From contig CP021424.1 in assembly GCA_002162095.1 (NCBI GenBank), positions 2,170,001 to 2,234,000 on the forward strand: a stretch of DNA of 64,000 nt, in the 5' to 3' direction. Both the position numbers and the translations under genes were made by a program. Positions 3,091 through 10,962 of this stretch are shown in pieces. The stretch comes from Armatimonadetes bacterium Uphvl-Ar2. GTDB taxonomy: Bacteria > Armatimonadota > Fimbriimonadia > Fimbriimonadales > Fimbriimonadaceae. Numbering within the stretch: position 1 is the first letter of the stretch; each line of letters opens with the position of its first letter. The notes beneath the pieces were generated by a model that saw only the letters and a program-made list of their open reading frames with translations, had not been told where the DNA came from and ran no database searches.

Positions 3091-3197
3091 ACCCGCTGGG
3101 AGGGAAGTTTGCCGCCCAATGCGGCATAATGTTCTTTCGCGCCCGTCGAGGACCCCAGGATTCTCAGACGAAACCAACGGAAAGGCTAAGTAACAGC

Positions 3198-3806
3198 ATG
3201 GCGACCTATCGAGGACGAAGATCAGATATCTGCCGCAAAGTCGGCTTCAACATTTGGGGCCGGGCCAAGTGCCCGAGCGTCAAGCGACCGTATCCCCCCG
3301 GGCAGCACGGTCCGAACCAACGCGAGCGACGCATGTCGGAATATGGCGAGCAGCTGCTGGCCAAGCAAGTCATCCGCCGCTATTACGGGATGCTGGAAAA
3401 GCAGTTCCGCCGCACGTTCGAGAAGGCTCAGCGCATGCGCGGTAACTCCGGTCTGAACTTCCTGCGCTTGCTGGAACTGCGCTTGCAGACCCAGGTTTAC
3501 CGCATGGGTTTTGCCAACACGATTGAGCAGGCCCGCCAGATGGTGAGCCACCAGCACATCTTCGTCAACGGCAAGTTGGTCGACATCCCGTCCTACCAGT
3601 GCCGCGTGGGTGACGTGATCTCGGTTCGAGATCGCGCTTCCAGCCGAGGCATTGCTCGCAAGAACAGCTACGAAGGCGCCGCCGTGCCGGTGTACATCGA
3701 GCCGGATGTGCCGAACTACGCGGGCAAGATCATCGCTCTGCCGGAACGGGAAGACTTCCCCAAGTTCATGGAAGAGCAGAAGGTCGTCGAGTTCTACGCT
3801 CGCTAA
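3198..3806 (+). CDS. rpsD: 30S ribosomal protein S4
   Basis: S4 is a primary 16S rRNA-binding protein that nucleates assembly of the 30S body. The 202-residue product starts MATYRGRRSDICRK, and an SD-like GGAAAGG lies about 12 bases upstream of ATG 3198. Visible parts are the N-terminal domain with KCPSVKRPYPPGQHG, and the S4 RNA-binding domain around residues 92-155 (LRLLELRLQTQVYRMGFANTIEQARQMVSHQHIFVNGK). An in-frame upstream start at 3129 would add a non-conserved extension and is rejected. The gene stands alone rather than in an alpha operon (rpsM-rpsK-rpsD-rpoA). It runs tail to tail with the Schlafen-like gene ending at 3811. Confidence 0.97.
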   Translation: MATYRGRRSDICRKVGFNIWGRAKCPSVKRPYPPGQHGPNQRERRMSEYGEQLLAKQVIRRYYGMLEKQFRRTFEKAQRMRGNSGLNFLRLLELRLQTQVYRMGFANTIEQARQMVSHQHIFVNGKLVDIPSYQCRVGDVISVRDRASSRGIARKNSYEGAAVPVYIEPDVPNYAGKIIALPEREDFPKFMEEQKVVEFYAR

Positions 3807-3810
3807 GACC

Positions 3811-5625
3811 CTACTCAAGAAAGGCCGAGCGCTGCGCGCGCTCAAGCACAAAACGATCACGTTCCCGACCGTGGAGCGTGATCGTTCGGTTTCCGTCCCG
3901 CACAAAAATCTCTTCCTTGGCGTTGCCGTGCTTGTCGCGGAACTTGCAGTAGGTGATGCTGGCCGTGGGCTGCACCTCAATGAGCATGAAAATCCGGTTG
4001 GCCATGCGCGGGAAGGTCACCCGGATGTTCTCGAGAGGCGGCGGCTGGAGTGCCGTGCGAAGGTGCGTGCGCAAGCGTTGTTCCAAGACATCGAGCGGAT
4101 TGCGGTCGCGAATGGCTTCGAGTTCCTCGTCAATCCCGACCGGGATGCCCGCGTCGGTCACGCCCAGGGCAATGGTGCCGCCTTGCGTGTTGAGCATGGC
4201 CGCCACAGCACGGATGATGCCGTGCCGCAACTCAGGGTCTTGCTGCTGAGTCCGGGGATTCCAGTCAAATCCTCGCTTGAACTCAAGCGTCTCGGACTCT
4301 TGTCGATAGCTGGGAACGGTCTGGTCATCCCGCACGGAGCGAATCCCGTGCCGAACCGCCCCCACCAGCTCGGGGAACTCGGGGAAGTGTACGTCTGGAT
4401 ACCACTGAAGGGAAGTGAGAGCCAAGCGCAGGCGCGCAATATACAGGTCGACGAGCGAGGGACAGATCAGGACGATGTTCTCCCGCAAGATTCTCCGTAG
4501 CGTGCGATCTGGATCCCAGGGCTTGCCCATGCGGCGCGCCGCGAGCATCTCGAGCTCCATGATCTCATCAAGGCACACCATGGCGAAGTTATCGAGTCCA
4601 TGCACCTCGTGCGCCAGCACGAACTTGCGCAACATGGGTAGCCATTGTTCAGGCGGGGTCGTATACGGGTCACAGTTCAAAAATACGGTGAGTTCCCAGT
4701 TGGCACGGTGGCTGAGGTCCTCGCCGGCATCCGAGGGAGCGTGGTCTCGCAGGGCATCGTGGAGAAAAACAATCTGGTCGAAACCGACACCCAAAGTGTA
4801 TTGGCCCGCCTCGGAGATCGACTGGAAGAGGGGAAACTCGTCACAGAATCCGCCGGGGCCAATCATCAGATGAACCAGCTCGATCGGTATGCGGGAATGC
4901 GAAGGAATGGAATTGCTTAGCTGGATCATCTCGAGAGGAAGTTGGCAAGCTTCGTAAACATTCGGGAAATCAAGGTCAAGACTGCATTCTCGGGTGGCGC
5001 TACAACTGACGGGGAGACCCACGACAATGTGGAGGGCCTGCATGAGGGGCGACTCCTTCTTCAGGAAGCCATGGTCATCAATCTGATCACTGGCAATGCC
5101 CTCCGTGACCTGACCGGGCATGAAACCCTTGTTCTGCAAAAGTCGGACGAGAATGAGGCGTGCGCAGGCCGAGAAGCCAGAATACTGATCGATGGAAACC
5201 TTTGAGGCATCGGGGCTAAACACTTCATTGAAGGGCCCTGCATAAATGCGGTCAATGTATTGCTCGACAGCAGCTTCAATATAATCGCGCGATTCCCGAA
5301 ACAGAGTGCGCTTGTTGAAGACGTGATTGAGGGTCGATTGCCACTGCTCGGCGGGGGCAGTGAGGATGAAGTTGAGAGAGCGTTCGGTCCAGCGGGGTAG
5401 CACCGGTCCGGTGACATCGAGCCGGACGGCTCCTCGAGCTTCGCGGCGAACCAGATAAGTTTGGCCGGCTTCAGATGTAAATAAGCCTAAGGCGCCTTCA
5501 TGTAAATCATCGGGGGAAGCGCAACGAAAGATGAGATGTTCATTCACCCGGTAGCCTTGCAAGACTGGCTCTGCCCCGTTTGCAATGAGCCATTGATCTA
5601 TCCAGCTCTGTTCGCCCGGCCTCAT
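3811..5625 (-). CDS. Schlafen AlbA_2-domain protein, paralogue 1 (intact)
   Basis: A 604-residue protein, last of three tandem paralogues on the minus strand. Its C-terminal ~160 residues look like a Schlafen AlbA_2 domain: ESETLEFKRGFDW (443-455), NTQGGTIALGVTDAG (479-493), and FVRDGNRTITLHGRERD (574-590). Residues E443, E448 and D491 match the ExxxxE...D pattern of the Schlafen RNase site; this is inferred by pattern, not by alignment. Residues 1-430 form a domain I do not recognise, with motifs IGPGGFCDEFPLFQS and FAMVCLDEIMELEMLAARR shared with the paralogues. RBS GGAGGTG lies 9 bases before ATG 5625. A 130-base gap separates it from paralogue 2. An RNA-cleaving or defence role is plausible but unproven. 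Confidence 0.8.
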   Translation of the reverse strand: MRPGEQSWIDQWLIANGAEPVLQGYRVNEHLIFRCASPDDLHEGALGLFTSEAGQTYLVRREARGAVRLDVTGPVLPRWTERSLNFILTAPAEQWQSTLNHVFNKRTLFRESRDYIEAAVEQYIDRIYAGPFNEVFSPDASKVSIDQYSGFSACARLILVRLLQNKGFMPGQVTEGIASDQIDDHGFLKKESPLMQALHIVVGLPVSCSATRECSLDLDFPNVYEACQLPLEMIQLSNSIPSHSRIPIELVHLMIGPGGFCDEFPLFQSISEAGQYTLGVGFDQIVFLHDALRDHAPSDAGEDLSHRANWELTVFLNCDPYTTPPEQWLPMLRKFVLAHEVHGLDNFAMVCLDEIMELEMLAARRMGKPWDPDRTLRRILRENIVLICPSLVDLYIARLRLALTSLQWYPDVHFPEFPELVGAVRHGIRSVRDDQTVPSYRQESETLEFKRGFDWNPRTQQQDPELRHGIIRAVAAMLNTQGGTIALGVTDAGIPVGIDEELEAIRDRNPLDVLEQRLRTHLRTALQPPPLENIRVTFPRMANRIFMLIEVQPTASITYCKFRDKHGNAKEEIFVRDGNRTITLHGRERDRFVLERAQRSAFLE

Positions 5626-5755
5626 CGTTTAGGCCACCTCCGGGCCATATTGCGATGTTTCTACCTGAAGCCGCCGAAAGTTGTTACCGGAATTTCTTTC
5701 AGGAGCTTACGTCATTAACAGAAAGTGAGTTCCGAGTTACTGTTTGTAATGAAGA

Positions 5756-7568
5756 CTATGTATGACTAGGCGGGACAACGCCTGGCCAAGCACGATCCAG
5801 AACAAACTGGTCTCGCTCCTGCCCTTTCAACGTGATGGTGCGGTTGCCATCGCGCACGCAAATCTCCATCTTGGGTTCGCCGTGCGTGTCTTTGTGCTTG
5901 AAATAGGTGATGTCAAAGCGCGGCTCAACCTCGATCTCCATGAGAATTCGGTTTGAAACGCGCGGGAATCGGATGGTCACAAACTGAAGCGGCGTGGGTT
6001 CGATGTATTGGCGGAGGTAGGTGCGGACGCGTTGCTCCATCACGTCCAATCGGTTTTGGCCCCGAATGTGTTGGAGCTCTTCCCCCAAGCCGAAGGGGAC
6101 GCCCTCGTTGTTCACCCCAATGATCAAGCTTCCTCCCCGGGCGTTTAGGAATCCGCAGATCGTGCGCATGCACGCTCGGCGAAGCTCTTGATCTCGTCCC
6201 TGGATTTTCGGGTTCCAATCAAAACCACGCTTCAGTTCGAGCCGGTCCGATTCGACATAGCGGGGGTGGCCACTACTCACCATGCGGTTCGTCACTTTGC
6301 CCCAGCGCATGGCGGACTGCATTTCGGGGAAATCCGGCACTTCGGGGCTATCCAACCACTGCCAAACCGCGAGCCCCAACCGCAATCGCGCCTGGAAAAG
6401 GTCGCTTTGGTTTCGACAGGCCCCCATGATTTGATGGCCCACAATGCGGCGCGCAGTGGCCAATGGATCCCAGCGCTCTCCGGACTGCACGGCCCGAATC
6501 GCATTGAGGTGCATCAGTTCGTTGAAGAGAGCCACCAGGTAGTTGCCGTGTTCGGGGTTCTCGTCAATAAAGATGAGCGAATCCATGGATTGGGTGGCGG
6601 CAATGTCCTGGGTGGTCTGGAAGGTCAACCGAGACTCGTATTGGCGGAGTTCCCAACGCACACCCTGGTGGAGGTCGCTGTACGACGAGAGCGGCTCTTG
6701 GTCTCTAAGAGAGTCCAGAAGCAAGCTCAAATGCTCAAAGGTGATCCCGACTTCGTGCGCCTCGATATCAGGTGGCCCGGCCAAAAGCGGATAGCGCGTG
6801 AGCAGCGATTCGGGTTGAGCCAACCGGTTCACAATGCCCGCCGGGATGCTGAAGAGGGTGCGCATGCGCTGGAAGTAATCGCGGACGCTGTCTTTCGTCT
6901 GGAACAGCCTCGCAAAATCCGGCAATTGGTCGCCCGGCCCCTCCGGGCTGCGTAGCCCGATGCTTGCCAGAATGATCTCCCGTAGCCACTCCGTGTGGAC
7001 CAAGTCGGCGGGGTTCTCAGCAAAGTTGTGTTCCTTGTCCATCGACGACAGGACTTCGGAAAAGGAAATGGCCCCTCGCTTGTCCAGCATCGCCAGGTGA
7101 AGGCAGCGAATGAGGACCGTGGCCAGAAAATAGTGGGAGTCATTCGCCCGGGCGTAGGCCGAGCGGAAGAACTTCTGCTCCGCCGGCGGGTCCACGAGTT
7201 CGCTGAACTCTTCTACCAAGGCCGTGATGTCGTCGTAGACGTGCTGGAGAAGGCGCTGGTCGGAGAAGAGGTGCACCTTATCCTCTAGCTTGTTGGGACC
7301 GATGTCCTTCGCCATCGTGGCCAAGTGGTCAGTTATGTAGGCGGGAGGGGGGAAGCGGAATCGAAACGAGATAGATCTCTATCAGTTCCTTGACGCACAA
7401 AGCCGGGGTTGTGCGTCGATGCTCAATGACTCCGATGCAACCGGGCGGGATTTCATGCACGCTTTGGACCAAAGCCAAAGGGCATCCGCCCAGGGTGGGG
7501 CCACGCTCGCTAGGCCTTGAATAATGCTCGACCAGCCAATCAAAAAGGGAAGGTTCGGAGCTACCCAT
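5756..7568 (-). CDS. Schlafen AlbA_2-domain protein, paralogue 2 (one frameshift)
   Basis: The reading frame is split into a 79-residue piece (7568-7329) and a ~520-residue piece (start 7324 or 7315 to 5756). The first piece aligns by eye with residues 7-78 of paralogue 1 (SLFDWLV.. with SWIDQWLI.., ending IPLPP with GPVLP). Removing one G from the plus-strand G6 run at 7347-7352 joins both into one ~603-residue protein, the same length as paralogue 1. The AlbA_2-like part has ESDRLELKRGFDW, ARGGSLIIGVNNEG and CVRDGNRTITLKGQERD. The third acidic position is N instead of D. The start ATG 7568 overlaps the stop of paralogue 3 (ATGGGTAG), implying translational coupling. Confidence 0.72.
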
Positions 7569-9434
7569 TCTCCGGCTCCTCGCTCACCACGCCTGCTCGC
7601 TTTAACTTCCAAGCAATCAAGAAGTCATCTCGCTCCCGATCATGGAGCGTGATGGTTTCCATACCACGTCGGGCGCAGAGGAGATCTTCATGAGCACCCT
7701 CTTCACGCCCGGGCACGTGATGCAAATAGGTCAGAGTCGGGCTACTCTTGACCGAGATCAACATGACCGGCTGGCGCTCTTCGTACTGCCACTCGATGGT
7801 CAACGAGTGCATAGGATTGGGAGAAATCGTTTGAGATAGCAGCTGAGTCATATACAGTTGCATCGAACGCTCAAAGGCAAATGGCTCACTGTCCGGTTCT
7901 TGGGGGACCTCGGTGATGGATCCATCCGGTCGCTTCCCGACGAGGATGGTGCCGCCTTCGGTATTCAGGAAGCCGGCGATATCACGCAAAAGTCGATGAG
8001 TGCTATCCGAGCGCATCGCGTCTCGCAGGTTCAGCGGCGGGAAATGGGGCCGGAAAATGACCCGCTCCGAGGGTTTCCAGTTGGACTGAACCGCAGCATA
8101 GTCATCCTGGATAGCCCGGCCCATTCTCACTGAATGGGTGAGATCAATTTCTTGGGCTTTCTCCGGGGTGGGCATCCAGGCCAGGGCGGCGTCTGCAATG
8201 CGCTGCCTAGTGACATACACGGCACCGAAGTTGTCGACCACCACGGTGATCTGCGAATTCACCAGGCGAATGATGTAGTCCGAGAGGTCTTCCTGGGAGC
8301 CCTCTTGCACGAGCCAATGGCGGATGAATCGCATGAGCTCATGAATCACCGACGTGGCGTAGTCGCCGAAGTTGTTGTCGGTGTCTACAACCTGGTTCAT
8401 TGCCACAACTTCGCGCCAATTGCCTGCTCCTCGCTGGAGGTCGATATCGCCGAAGAGGTCGTACAGTCGCCCGAAGGCCCGGCGTCGCGAGCCGATGTGC
8501 ACGGTGCCCGTGCGGCCTTGCCAAGCCCGGACCGTCGTCCGGTAAGCAATGTTCGCGTGGACCGCGATTTCACTGTAAAACGCGTCGAAGTGGTCCTGAC
8601 AGAAGGGGAAATTTTGGATTAGGCCGCCCGGACCAAAGACAGCCTCTATGAACTCGGGAGTGGGAGTGAAGAAGTATGAGAAGTCCGAGGGGTAAGGAGT
8701 TGCTCTGAACCCGCATAGCCGACCCGACCCAAATAGGGCACCTCGCCAATCCACTCTGCCAAGGGGTTTTCGCCTCGCTGTTCGGGTGGGGTCAACGTTT
8801 GGCGGAGGACCGCATTGAATCGGTCGAAAAGCGTCGGAGAGCCAGGATTCGCCTGAGCATCTTCGGCGAGAGCACGGAAGTACTGGGAACGTCCCTTGAA
8901 CGAAAACCAGCCCCTGGCGACGAGGCATTGCAGGCTACACGTACGCTGCAAGAATCGAAGCAGGATGTTGACGCGATAGTCCTGTGGCCCGTGGGCCGGG
9001 TTAAAGGTATGGGCCTCCTCAGTGTCCCGGAAATGACAATGCCGGGCATGAGTTTGGGCAATGTCAAGAAGACGATCCACAAAGGGCTTATAGAAGACAT
9101 TGCCGCTGAGCAAATGTTCAAGCAATTCTCCATCATTTTCATCGAAGGCTACTGTGAGATCAGTTAGCCATTTATGCACTAACCCAGGGAGATGGTCGTG
9201 GCTAATTATGATTTGACGAGGGTGCGGTAAGCTTGTCCAACGGATTCGCTGGCGCCGTCCTTCCTCGTCTAGGTCTTCAATCCAAATCGAAGTCGGTGCG
9301 GGGTCCGGGGACACCGGGGCCTTCCCCCAGTGGATCATCCACCCGGCTTGTTCAATCTTGTCCTCTCGTTGATTGAGCCCCTTTGCCAATCGCCAAGCCT
9401 CAGAACCGAACGGTTCTATTGGCTCGCAAACCAT
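7561..9434 (-). CDS. Schlafen AlbA_2-like protein, paralogue 3 (one frameshift, degenerate active site)
   Basis: First gene of the three-gene cluster. The N-terminal frame runs 9434 to about 8690 and the rest continues in another frame to 7561. One extra G in the plus-strand G4 run 8689-8692 gives a continuous ~624-residue protein passing from SEQLLTP into SDFSYFFTPTPEF. It shares FGPGGLIQNFPFCQ and a VIHELMRF segment with its paralogues. The AlbA_2-like part is eroded: PSERVIFRPHF replaces the ExLEFK motif and GKRPDG replaces the VTD turn, though NTEGGTILVG and RGMETITLHDRERDDF remain. ATG 9434 sits 6 bases behind a TACAAT -10 box, so the message is probably leaderless. Confidence 0.68.
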
Positions 9435-9483: not shown

Positions 9484-10962
9484 TTAGTCAGCTTCTCCGC
9501 TCACGAAGGGGCTGGAATAGTTGGGCGGCTCCTTCGTAATCCACACGTCGTGAGGATGGCTCTCGCGCAAGCCGGCGTTCGTGATTCGCACAAATTCCGC
9601 TCGCTCGCGAAGGTCTTGCAGTGAACTCGCGCCGAGGTAGCCCATGCCGCTCTTGAGGCCGCCCAGCACCTGCACCATCGTCTCATTGAGCGAACCCTTG
9701 AAGGGCACCCGGCCTTCCACGCCTTCGGGCACCATCGAGGCCCCCGTGCTCTTAATCGCGAAGTAACGGTCGCTGGAGCCTTGGCGCATCGCGCCGATGC
9801 TGCCCATGCCTCGGTAGACCTTGTAGGCCCGATTACGATAAATTTCCACTTCGCCCGGGCTTTCTTCGCACCCAGCAAACATGTTGCCCATCATCACGGC
9901 GCTGGCCCCGGCGGCAAGGCTCTTCACCACATCGCCGCTGCTACGCACGCCGCCATCAGCAATCGTCGGCAAGCCCAGCTTATTGGCTTCTTCGCAGCAA
10001 TCCAAGACGGCCGTGAACTGCGGCACCCCGACCCCGGCCACCACGCGCGTGGTGCAGATGGAGCCCGCTCCGATGCCAAGGCGAAGACCATCGGCGCCTA
10101 CCGCATGAAGGTCGCGCACGCCTTCCTTGGTGGCCACGTTCCCGGCAATCACCTTCAGGTCGGGCAGCTTGTTCTTCAGCATCTTCACGCACTCAATCAC
10201 GCCGTCGCTTTGGCCGTGGGCGGCGTCAATGACAATGAAGTCCACGCCGGCTTCGAACAGTGCCTTGGCGCGCTCGTAGGGTTCGCGGAGCGGGCCAATG
10301 GCGGCGCCGACGACCAAGCGGCCCCGGCCATCCTTGGTGGCGTTCGGGTGGCGTCGCACCTTCTCGATGTCCTTGATGGTGATGAGCCCCTTGAGGTAGC
10401 CGTCGGCATCCACGATGGGCAGCTTTTCAATGCGGTGGTCGGCCAGCAGGGCTTCGGCTTGCTCCAGGCTCGTGCCTTCCTTGGTCGTCACCAGGTTCTT
10501 GCTGGTCATCCGCTCGCTGATGGGGCGGGAGTAATCGGTCTCAAAGCGAATGTCGCGGTTGGTGAGGATGCCCACCAGCAGACCCTTGTCGTCTGTGATC
10601 GGTACCCCGCTGATGCGATACCGCGCCATCAGGTTTACGGCCTCTTGGATGGTCGTTTCGGGGTTGAGCTTGAAGGGGTCGGTGATGACGCCGTGCTCGC
10701 TGCGTTTCACCCGGTCCACCTCTTCGGCTTGCCGGTCAATCGGCATATTGCGGTGGATCACGCCCACAGCCCCCTCGCGGGCAATGGCAATGGCGAGTCG
10801 GCTTTCGGTGACCGTATCCATCGGGGCCGAGACAATCGGAACCCGCAGGCGAACACCCGGCACGATCTCGGTGGAGGTGTCAACTTGGGAAGGGAGCACA
10901 GAAGAACGACGCGGGACGAGCAAGACGTCGTCGAAACTCAAACCTTCCCGAAATGAAGCCAT
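9484..10962 (-). CDS. guaB: IMP dehydrogenase
   Basis: Oxidises IMP to XMP with NAD+, the committed step of GMP synthesis. 492 residues, typical length. Begins [17 protein letters not shown]. Two CBS domains lie around residues 95-210 ([21 protein letters not shown] and [18 protein letters not shown]). The catalytic cysteine loop is [11 protein letters not shown], and the mobile flap region is [12 protein letters not shown]. The usual GPGSICTTR reads GAGSICTTR here. A CATACT -10-like box lies 5 bases before the start (10968-10973), so this too may be leaderless. It is divergent from the DUF167 gene at 11000 and upstream of the Schlafen-like cluster on the same strand. Confidence 0.97.

Follow-up and report, generated by a model that had tools for sequence, protein, structure and literature searches.

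A cluster of three truncated adenine methyltransferase-like proteins with C-terminal Schlafen AlbA_2 domains and a single intact active site in Armatimonadota

Three tandem genes between guaB and rpsD in an Armatimonadota genome encode proteins in which the front half of an N6-adenine DNA methyltransferase is followed by a Schlafen AlbA_2 domain, and only one of the three has kept all residues of the Schlafen-type active site. The genes, here called g1, g2 and g3, lie on the minus strand of the window, by which we mean the whole stretch of 64,000 nucleotides that was analyzed (G000:C1:2170001-2234000, from a genome of 2.63 Mb in one contig). Computation establishes how the proteins are built, which methyltransferase motifs they have lost, how intact and degraded active sites are distributed among the paralogues, and that the genes are under purifying selection yet highly diverged between species. 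The function that we infer, with a little less than even confidence, is that of a Schlafen RNase-like complex of the conflict type, in which one subunit is active and the other two are pseudo-subunits, with the pseudo-methyltransferase as a sensor or scaffold.

In reading order on the minus strand, guaB (9484..10962) is followed after a 49 bp gap by g3 (7561..9434), g2 (5756..7567) and g1 (3811..5625), whose end is 4 bp from the stop of the convergent rpsD (3129..3806, plus strand). The stop of g3 overlaps the start of g2, while a gap of 130–155 bp (in the window and in the comparison genome) separates g2 from g1. g1 is a single open frame of 604 amino acids. The other two are frame-broken, g2 at ~7347-7352 in a run of six C and g3 at ~8683-8700. 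For comparison we used UBA2785 (G046), an Armatimonadota genome of the same genus, which carries three open genes of 628, about 600 and 605 amino acids in identical order, flanked by guaB and rpsD. The 628-amino-acid protein is the intact counterpart of g3, and the order of guaB and its neighbor is also matched in a third species of the genus (G047). The tandem minus-strand paralogues described in the initial annotation are thus real, and the frame breaks in g2 and g3 are probably sequence errors, because the essential gene dnaE is also broken in the window. A programmed frameshift was considered for g2 and g3 and found to be unsupported, as the reading frames of G046 continue through the equivalent positions uninterrupted. 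The dnaE gene itself (window:3-2383), which lies beyond the cluster and rpsD, is split into overlapping ORFs (3-548 and 416-2383); this is probably an assembly error, and other frame breaks in this genome need careful reading. No BREX partner genes (ATPase, helicase, PglZ, HKD-helicase) adjoin the cluster, and a promoter scan gave no signal exceeding chance.

The N-terminal region of ~430 residues had initially been described as an unrecognised domain without a name. It proves to be no new domain: an N6-adenine DNA methyltransferase of the type IIG/PglX-like (Eco57I) kind is represented here by its front half, which ends before the NPPY motif and is joined directly to the AlbA_2 domain. Scans of the single window proteins against Pfam, PADLOC and NCBIfam gave this region no name, and the kinship emerged only via relatives and profile–profile comparison. 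When a profile of the N-termini from the window's genus alone was aligned by hhalign to the N-terminal part of full-length Eco57I methyltransferases, the match covered 371 collinear columns (probability 98.8, E = 8.9e-17) and stopped before NPPY; eight column-shuffled controls and one reversed control gave E values of at least 0.14. Single-copy relatives matched the PADLOC profiles for type IIG and PglX, with E values as low as 3e-12, as well as Pfam MmeI_Mtase (E = 4e-6), and a tblastn search with one relative (L042) aligned residues ~93-475 to proteins from cyanobacteria, Deinococcus and archaea that are annotated as N-6 DNA methylases (E to 1e-16). The AlphaFold2 model of g1 is middling (mean pLDDT 59.6, pTM 0.36). 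In this model, residues 283-441 (4303..4779, minus strand) form the half-Rossmann fold of an adenine methyltransferase, as also aligned by hhalign, and match CamA (Z = 10.2) and MmeI (Z = 8.8). Residues 111-450 match BrxX (Z = 9.3), and the top Foldseek match of the model is the type ISP enzyme LlaBIII. A novel N-terminal fold is ruled out by these profile and structural matches. The preceding helical region (residues ~106-282; 4780..5310, minus strand) corresponds by hhalign to the N-terminus of type IIG/PglX methyltransferases. Residues ~1-105 (5311..5625, minus strand) make up a small alpha/beta domain, modeled as a block with pLDDT of ~57-88, for which structural comparison yielded no match with Z of 5 or more.

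The window proteins thus share with the type IIG, PglX (BrxX) and MmeI enzymes of the Eco57I family a helical N-terminus, the stretch "(I/V)PDE(L/M)FE.LLG..GLL", and the motif I region with its following helices, collinear over ~370 columns, but they lack NPPY and a target-recognition domain, and their motif I is degenerate. In place of DPACGSG, g1 reads EVHGLDNFA (within HGLDNFAM), g2 DENPEHGNY and g3 DTDNNFGDY, and an NPPY-like motif IV ([NDS]PP[YFWH]) is absent from 21/21 family sequences. An active methyltransferase is therefore ruled out: the truncation precedes both motif IV and the target-recognition domain, which makes methylation impossible. Two motifs had been reported as common to all three paralogues. 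The E(I/L)M helix is indeed present in g1, g2 and g3, whereas GPGG...FP, a variant of the methyltransferase stretch "PDELFE.LLG..GLL..YNF", occurs in g1 and g3 only, the g2 equivalent being QPESLLTRYP.

The AlbA_2-type C-termini proposed in the initial annotation were borne out in all three proteins, each matching Pfam SLFN_AlbA_2 (PF04326) above the curated cut-off of 25.3 bits (g1, 56.6 bits, E = 4.5e-15; g2, 46.8 bits, E = 5.2e-12; g3, 27.2 bits, E = 6.1e-6). A profile built from the C-termini of the family matched SLFN12, 5, 14, 11 and 8 and SAMD9 in the PDB. In the g1 model the domain (residues ~443-604; 3814..4299, minus strand) aligns with SLFN14 (residues 441-600; Z = 11.8, 140 residues at 3.5 A) and with the SAMD9 tRNase domain (residues 442-604; Z = 10.0). 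In rat SLFN13 the RNase site consists of E205, E210 and D248 (PMC5862951). By sequence, the family has E443-x4-E448, together with K450 and D491 (g1 numbering), and from motif context D491 is the putative counterpart of SLFN13 D248. Both species retain all four residues in g1, as do 14/15 aligned relatives. By contrast, g2 has N in place of D, and g3 has lost all four, again in both species. Like the Schlafen/SAMD9 RNases (SLFN11/13/14, SAMD9), g1 combines the AlbA_2 fold with E-x4-E and a downstream D; eukaryotic SLFNs carry two lobes per chain, whereas the window proteins carry one lobe each, fused to the pseudo-methyltransferase. A single-copy relative elsewhere in the window's genome (L093:5928-7265, G000:C1 ~1284 kb), which occupies the ancestral S9 peptidase/HD site, retains both E residues and the K but has lost the D, and the work may be split between this locus and the guaB–rpsD locus.

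Full-length proteins of 1230–1300 amino acids, which start with a matching N-terminus and continue through NPPY and a target-recognition region to an AlbA_2 domain at the C-terminus, are found in the bacterial family of the window organism, where their genes lie beside or near a gene for an HKD-phospholipase-like Snf2 helicase. The window proteins resemble them at both ends, the methyltransferase N-terminus and the AlbA_2 C-terminus, but have only ~600–630 amino acids and stand alone, whereas the full-length form, with NPPY, belongs to a restriction-like system. The short family looks like the full-length protein minus its middle, arising via deletion or a separate fusion. In a tree of AlbA_2 domains the full-length forms are scattered rather than forming one clade, which is compatible with either route. 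The same tree places g1 and g2 as sister copies (support 98/99; 31–34% identity) and g3, which is more distant, on a very long branch that leaves its kinship to g1 and g2 uncertain. The window's genome also has a full-length protein of this kind (C1:477-481 kb), adjoining an HKD–Snf2 helicase (L086:9674-16758, C1 ~477.7-484.8 kb), and a gene for an AbiEii-like nucleotidyltransferase (L086:412-1383) is close by; this region is likely a defence island.

Among 291 genomes of the phylum, the short form is confined to one family, where it is mostly single-copy and lineage-specific. The contig scan covers close relatives only, and absence outside the phylum, which rests on plasmid searches, is not firm. 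In many genera the single-copy gene sits in a common core neighborhood (S9 peptidase, HD protein, OstA-like, purQ), as does that of the window's own genome (C1:1284 kb, 445 amino acids). Conserved triplets in unrelated genomes, to which the initial annotation had looked as support for a system, were not found; the triplet is known only from G000 and G046, which represent two species of a single genus. In G047, a third species of that genus, a lone copy adjoins guaB, on a contig that ends just past it. Directly upstream of guaB in G047 there is a gene for a HipA-like kinase (L037:7756-8967), and guaB may mark a hot spot where genes are gained. Carriage by phages was considered as well, and IMG/VR yielded three distant partial matches, none of the short architecture.

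Between the two species, dN/dS was 0.05–0.11 for g1, g2 and the N-terminal part of g3 (the C-terminal part of g3 is saturated at synonymous sites), and the cluster genes are under purifying selection. Within g1, identity is 91% for AlbA_2 and 66% for the remainder; g3 shows the opposite trend, its AlbA_2 part (72%) being less conserved than the rest. This is compatible with constraint on the effector in g1, rapid change in the sensing part and relaxation at the dead site of g3.

We propose, tentatively, that the family descends from the full-length methyltransferase–AlbA_2 protein of an HKD-helicase/N6-methyltransferase defence system, having lost the middle, and that copies of the gene multiplied between guaB and rpsD in the window's genus. 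The metal-binding E/E/D ribonuclease site would have been retained in g1, while g2 and g3 would have turned into partners that lack catalysis, so that the mixed Schlafen complex would have a single active subunit. The fast-changing pseudo-methyltransferase part would serve as the sensor or scaffold that controls RNA cleavage, and the target would be an RNA (tRNA or similar) cut under stress or genetic conflict. A precedent is PUCH (TOFU-1/TOFU-2/SLFL-3), the C. elegans piRNA nuclease. In that trimer of Schlafen-domain proteins, TOFU-2 has potential catalytic residues whereas none were identified in TOFU-1, and TOFU-2 E216A abolishes activity (PMC10567574). Here, too, there are three different Schlafen-domain proteins with catalytic residues not in all of them (intact in g1, lost in g2 and g3, in two species). 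PUCH differs in being eukaryotic and in having no methyltransferase part, and its complex was shown directly, whereas that of g1, g2 and g3 is predicted. What counts against a conflict-type role is that the cluster copies adjoin core genes and lie outside any defence island.

A narrower form of this proposal, overlapping with it in confidence, is that the cluster is a direct anti-phage effector like bacterial Schlafens, with infection setting off tRNA cleavage by g1 and thereby cell arrest. The divergence data count in its favor. Over 59 reciprocal gene pairs between G000 and G046, the four family genes (g1, g2, g3 and the single-copy gene) rank 1–4 in synonymous divergence, uncorrected for expression level (dS of at least 1.6, against a median of 0.31), as would result from an arms race or from exchange of alleles; the three cluster genes are linked, so that these represent two loci and not four independent cases. 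The genes flanking the cluster on both sides have ordinary synonymous divergence. Outside the family, the next-highest value belongs to L102:13758-15191 (1.35, 72% identity). Of the suggestion in the initial annotation of a heteromer or an arms race, the signs that fit are the one intact and two degenerate sites in both species and the extreme divergence inside conserved flanks. The full-length kin belong to a defence-type system, and a preprint, as cited in PMC12839542, reports bacterial Schlafens in anti-phage defence. BREX and BREX-related systems with auxiliary Schlafen RNases (PMC12839542) likewise bring together Schlafen RNases and kinship to PglX-type methyltransferases, but the Schlafen there is a separate fusion with a histidine kinase and wHTH (PMC12839542), and the window cluster is not adjoined by BREX genes. 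While a defence role is suggested by these observations, we consider a direct anti-phage effector doubtful: low expression or recombination can also raise synonymous divergence, the genes sit among core genes in vertical synteny, and the window proteins have no match to a known defence system in PADLOC or NCBIfam.

A DNA-side factor was judged rather unlikely. In this reading AlbA_2 would bind nucleic acid but leave RNA uncut, and the proteins would be associated with DNA and work in repair or restriction, elsewhere as partners of Vsr. Vsr is a mismatch endonuclease of DNA repair. Its gene directly abuts the single-copy relative, often overlapping it, in five genomes (L038, L041, L044, L046, L047), and this pairing in other genera points to DNA rather than RNA. 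Vsr is also commoner in carriers of the short form (11/17 vs 17/68, p = 0.003, a statistic that ignores kinship). We know of no earlier case of Vsr paired with a pseudo-methyltransferase–AlbA_2 protein. The N-terminal half comes from a DNA enzyme, and PF04326 was taken as DNA-binding in older annotation (PMC6299218). However, the window's genome has neither Vsr nor a C5 methylase, which rules out dependence on Vsr/Dcm, and the E-x4-E...D site is invariant in nearly all relatives, as would not be expected of a mere binder.

The three genes might also be independent paralogues with separate triggers or substrates, g2 and g3 being non-catalytic regulators or decoys outside any joint complex. This is consistent with their deep divergence, with the intergenic gap before g1, which permits separate expression, and with the single copy at guaB in G047. 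We regard it as unlikely, however, as the conserved order, the g3/g2 overlap and the identical active-site split in both species fit joint function better. Very improbable, in our judgment, is a decoy or guard in which the truncated methyltransferase would mimic the PglX/type IIG part that is seized by phage anti-restriction proteins and, once occupied, would switch on the g1 RNase in the three-subunit complex, converting blocked restriction into RNA cleavage; Ocr reportedly binds BrxX. Finally, that the cluster is a set of decaying remnants, as the two frame breaks and the lost methyltransferase motifs might indicate, is nearly refuted by the three open genes of G046 and the low dN/dS wherever measurable, and dnaE, broken in the same window, points to sequence errors.

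Returning to the complex with one active and two pseudo-subunits, the domains themselves are known, and what appears to be new, from the sequences, is the combination of a truncated methyltransferase with AlbA_2. In the literature we found no description of a methyltransferase that ends before its catalytic motif and is fused to a Schlafen nuclease domain, and to our knowledge there have been no experiments on the pseudo-methyltransferase–AlbA_2 family. An N-terminal domain that general profile libraries miss in the window proteins now has a name. A pseudo-methyltransferase–AlbA_2 protein would clearly illustrate how part of a restriction enzyme can be put to new use as a sensor or scaffold, and a bacterial trio of Schlafen paralogues with one intact site would parallel PUCH of the worm and offer a small system in which to test how mixed Schlafen complexes arose.
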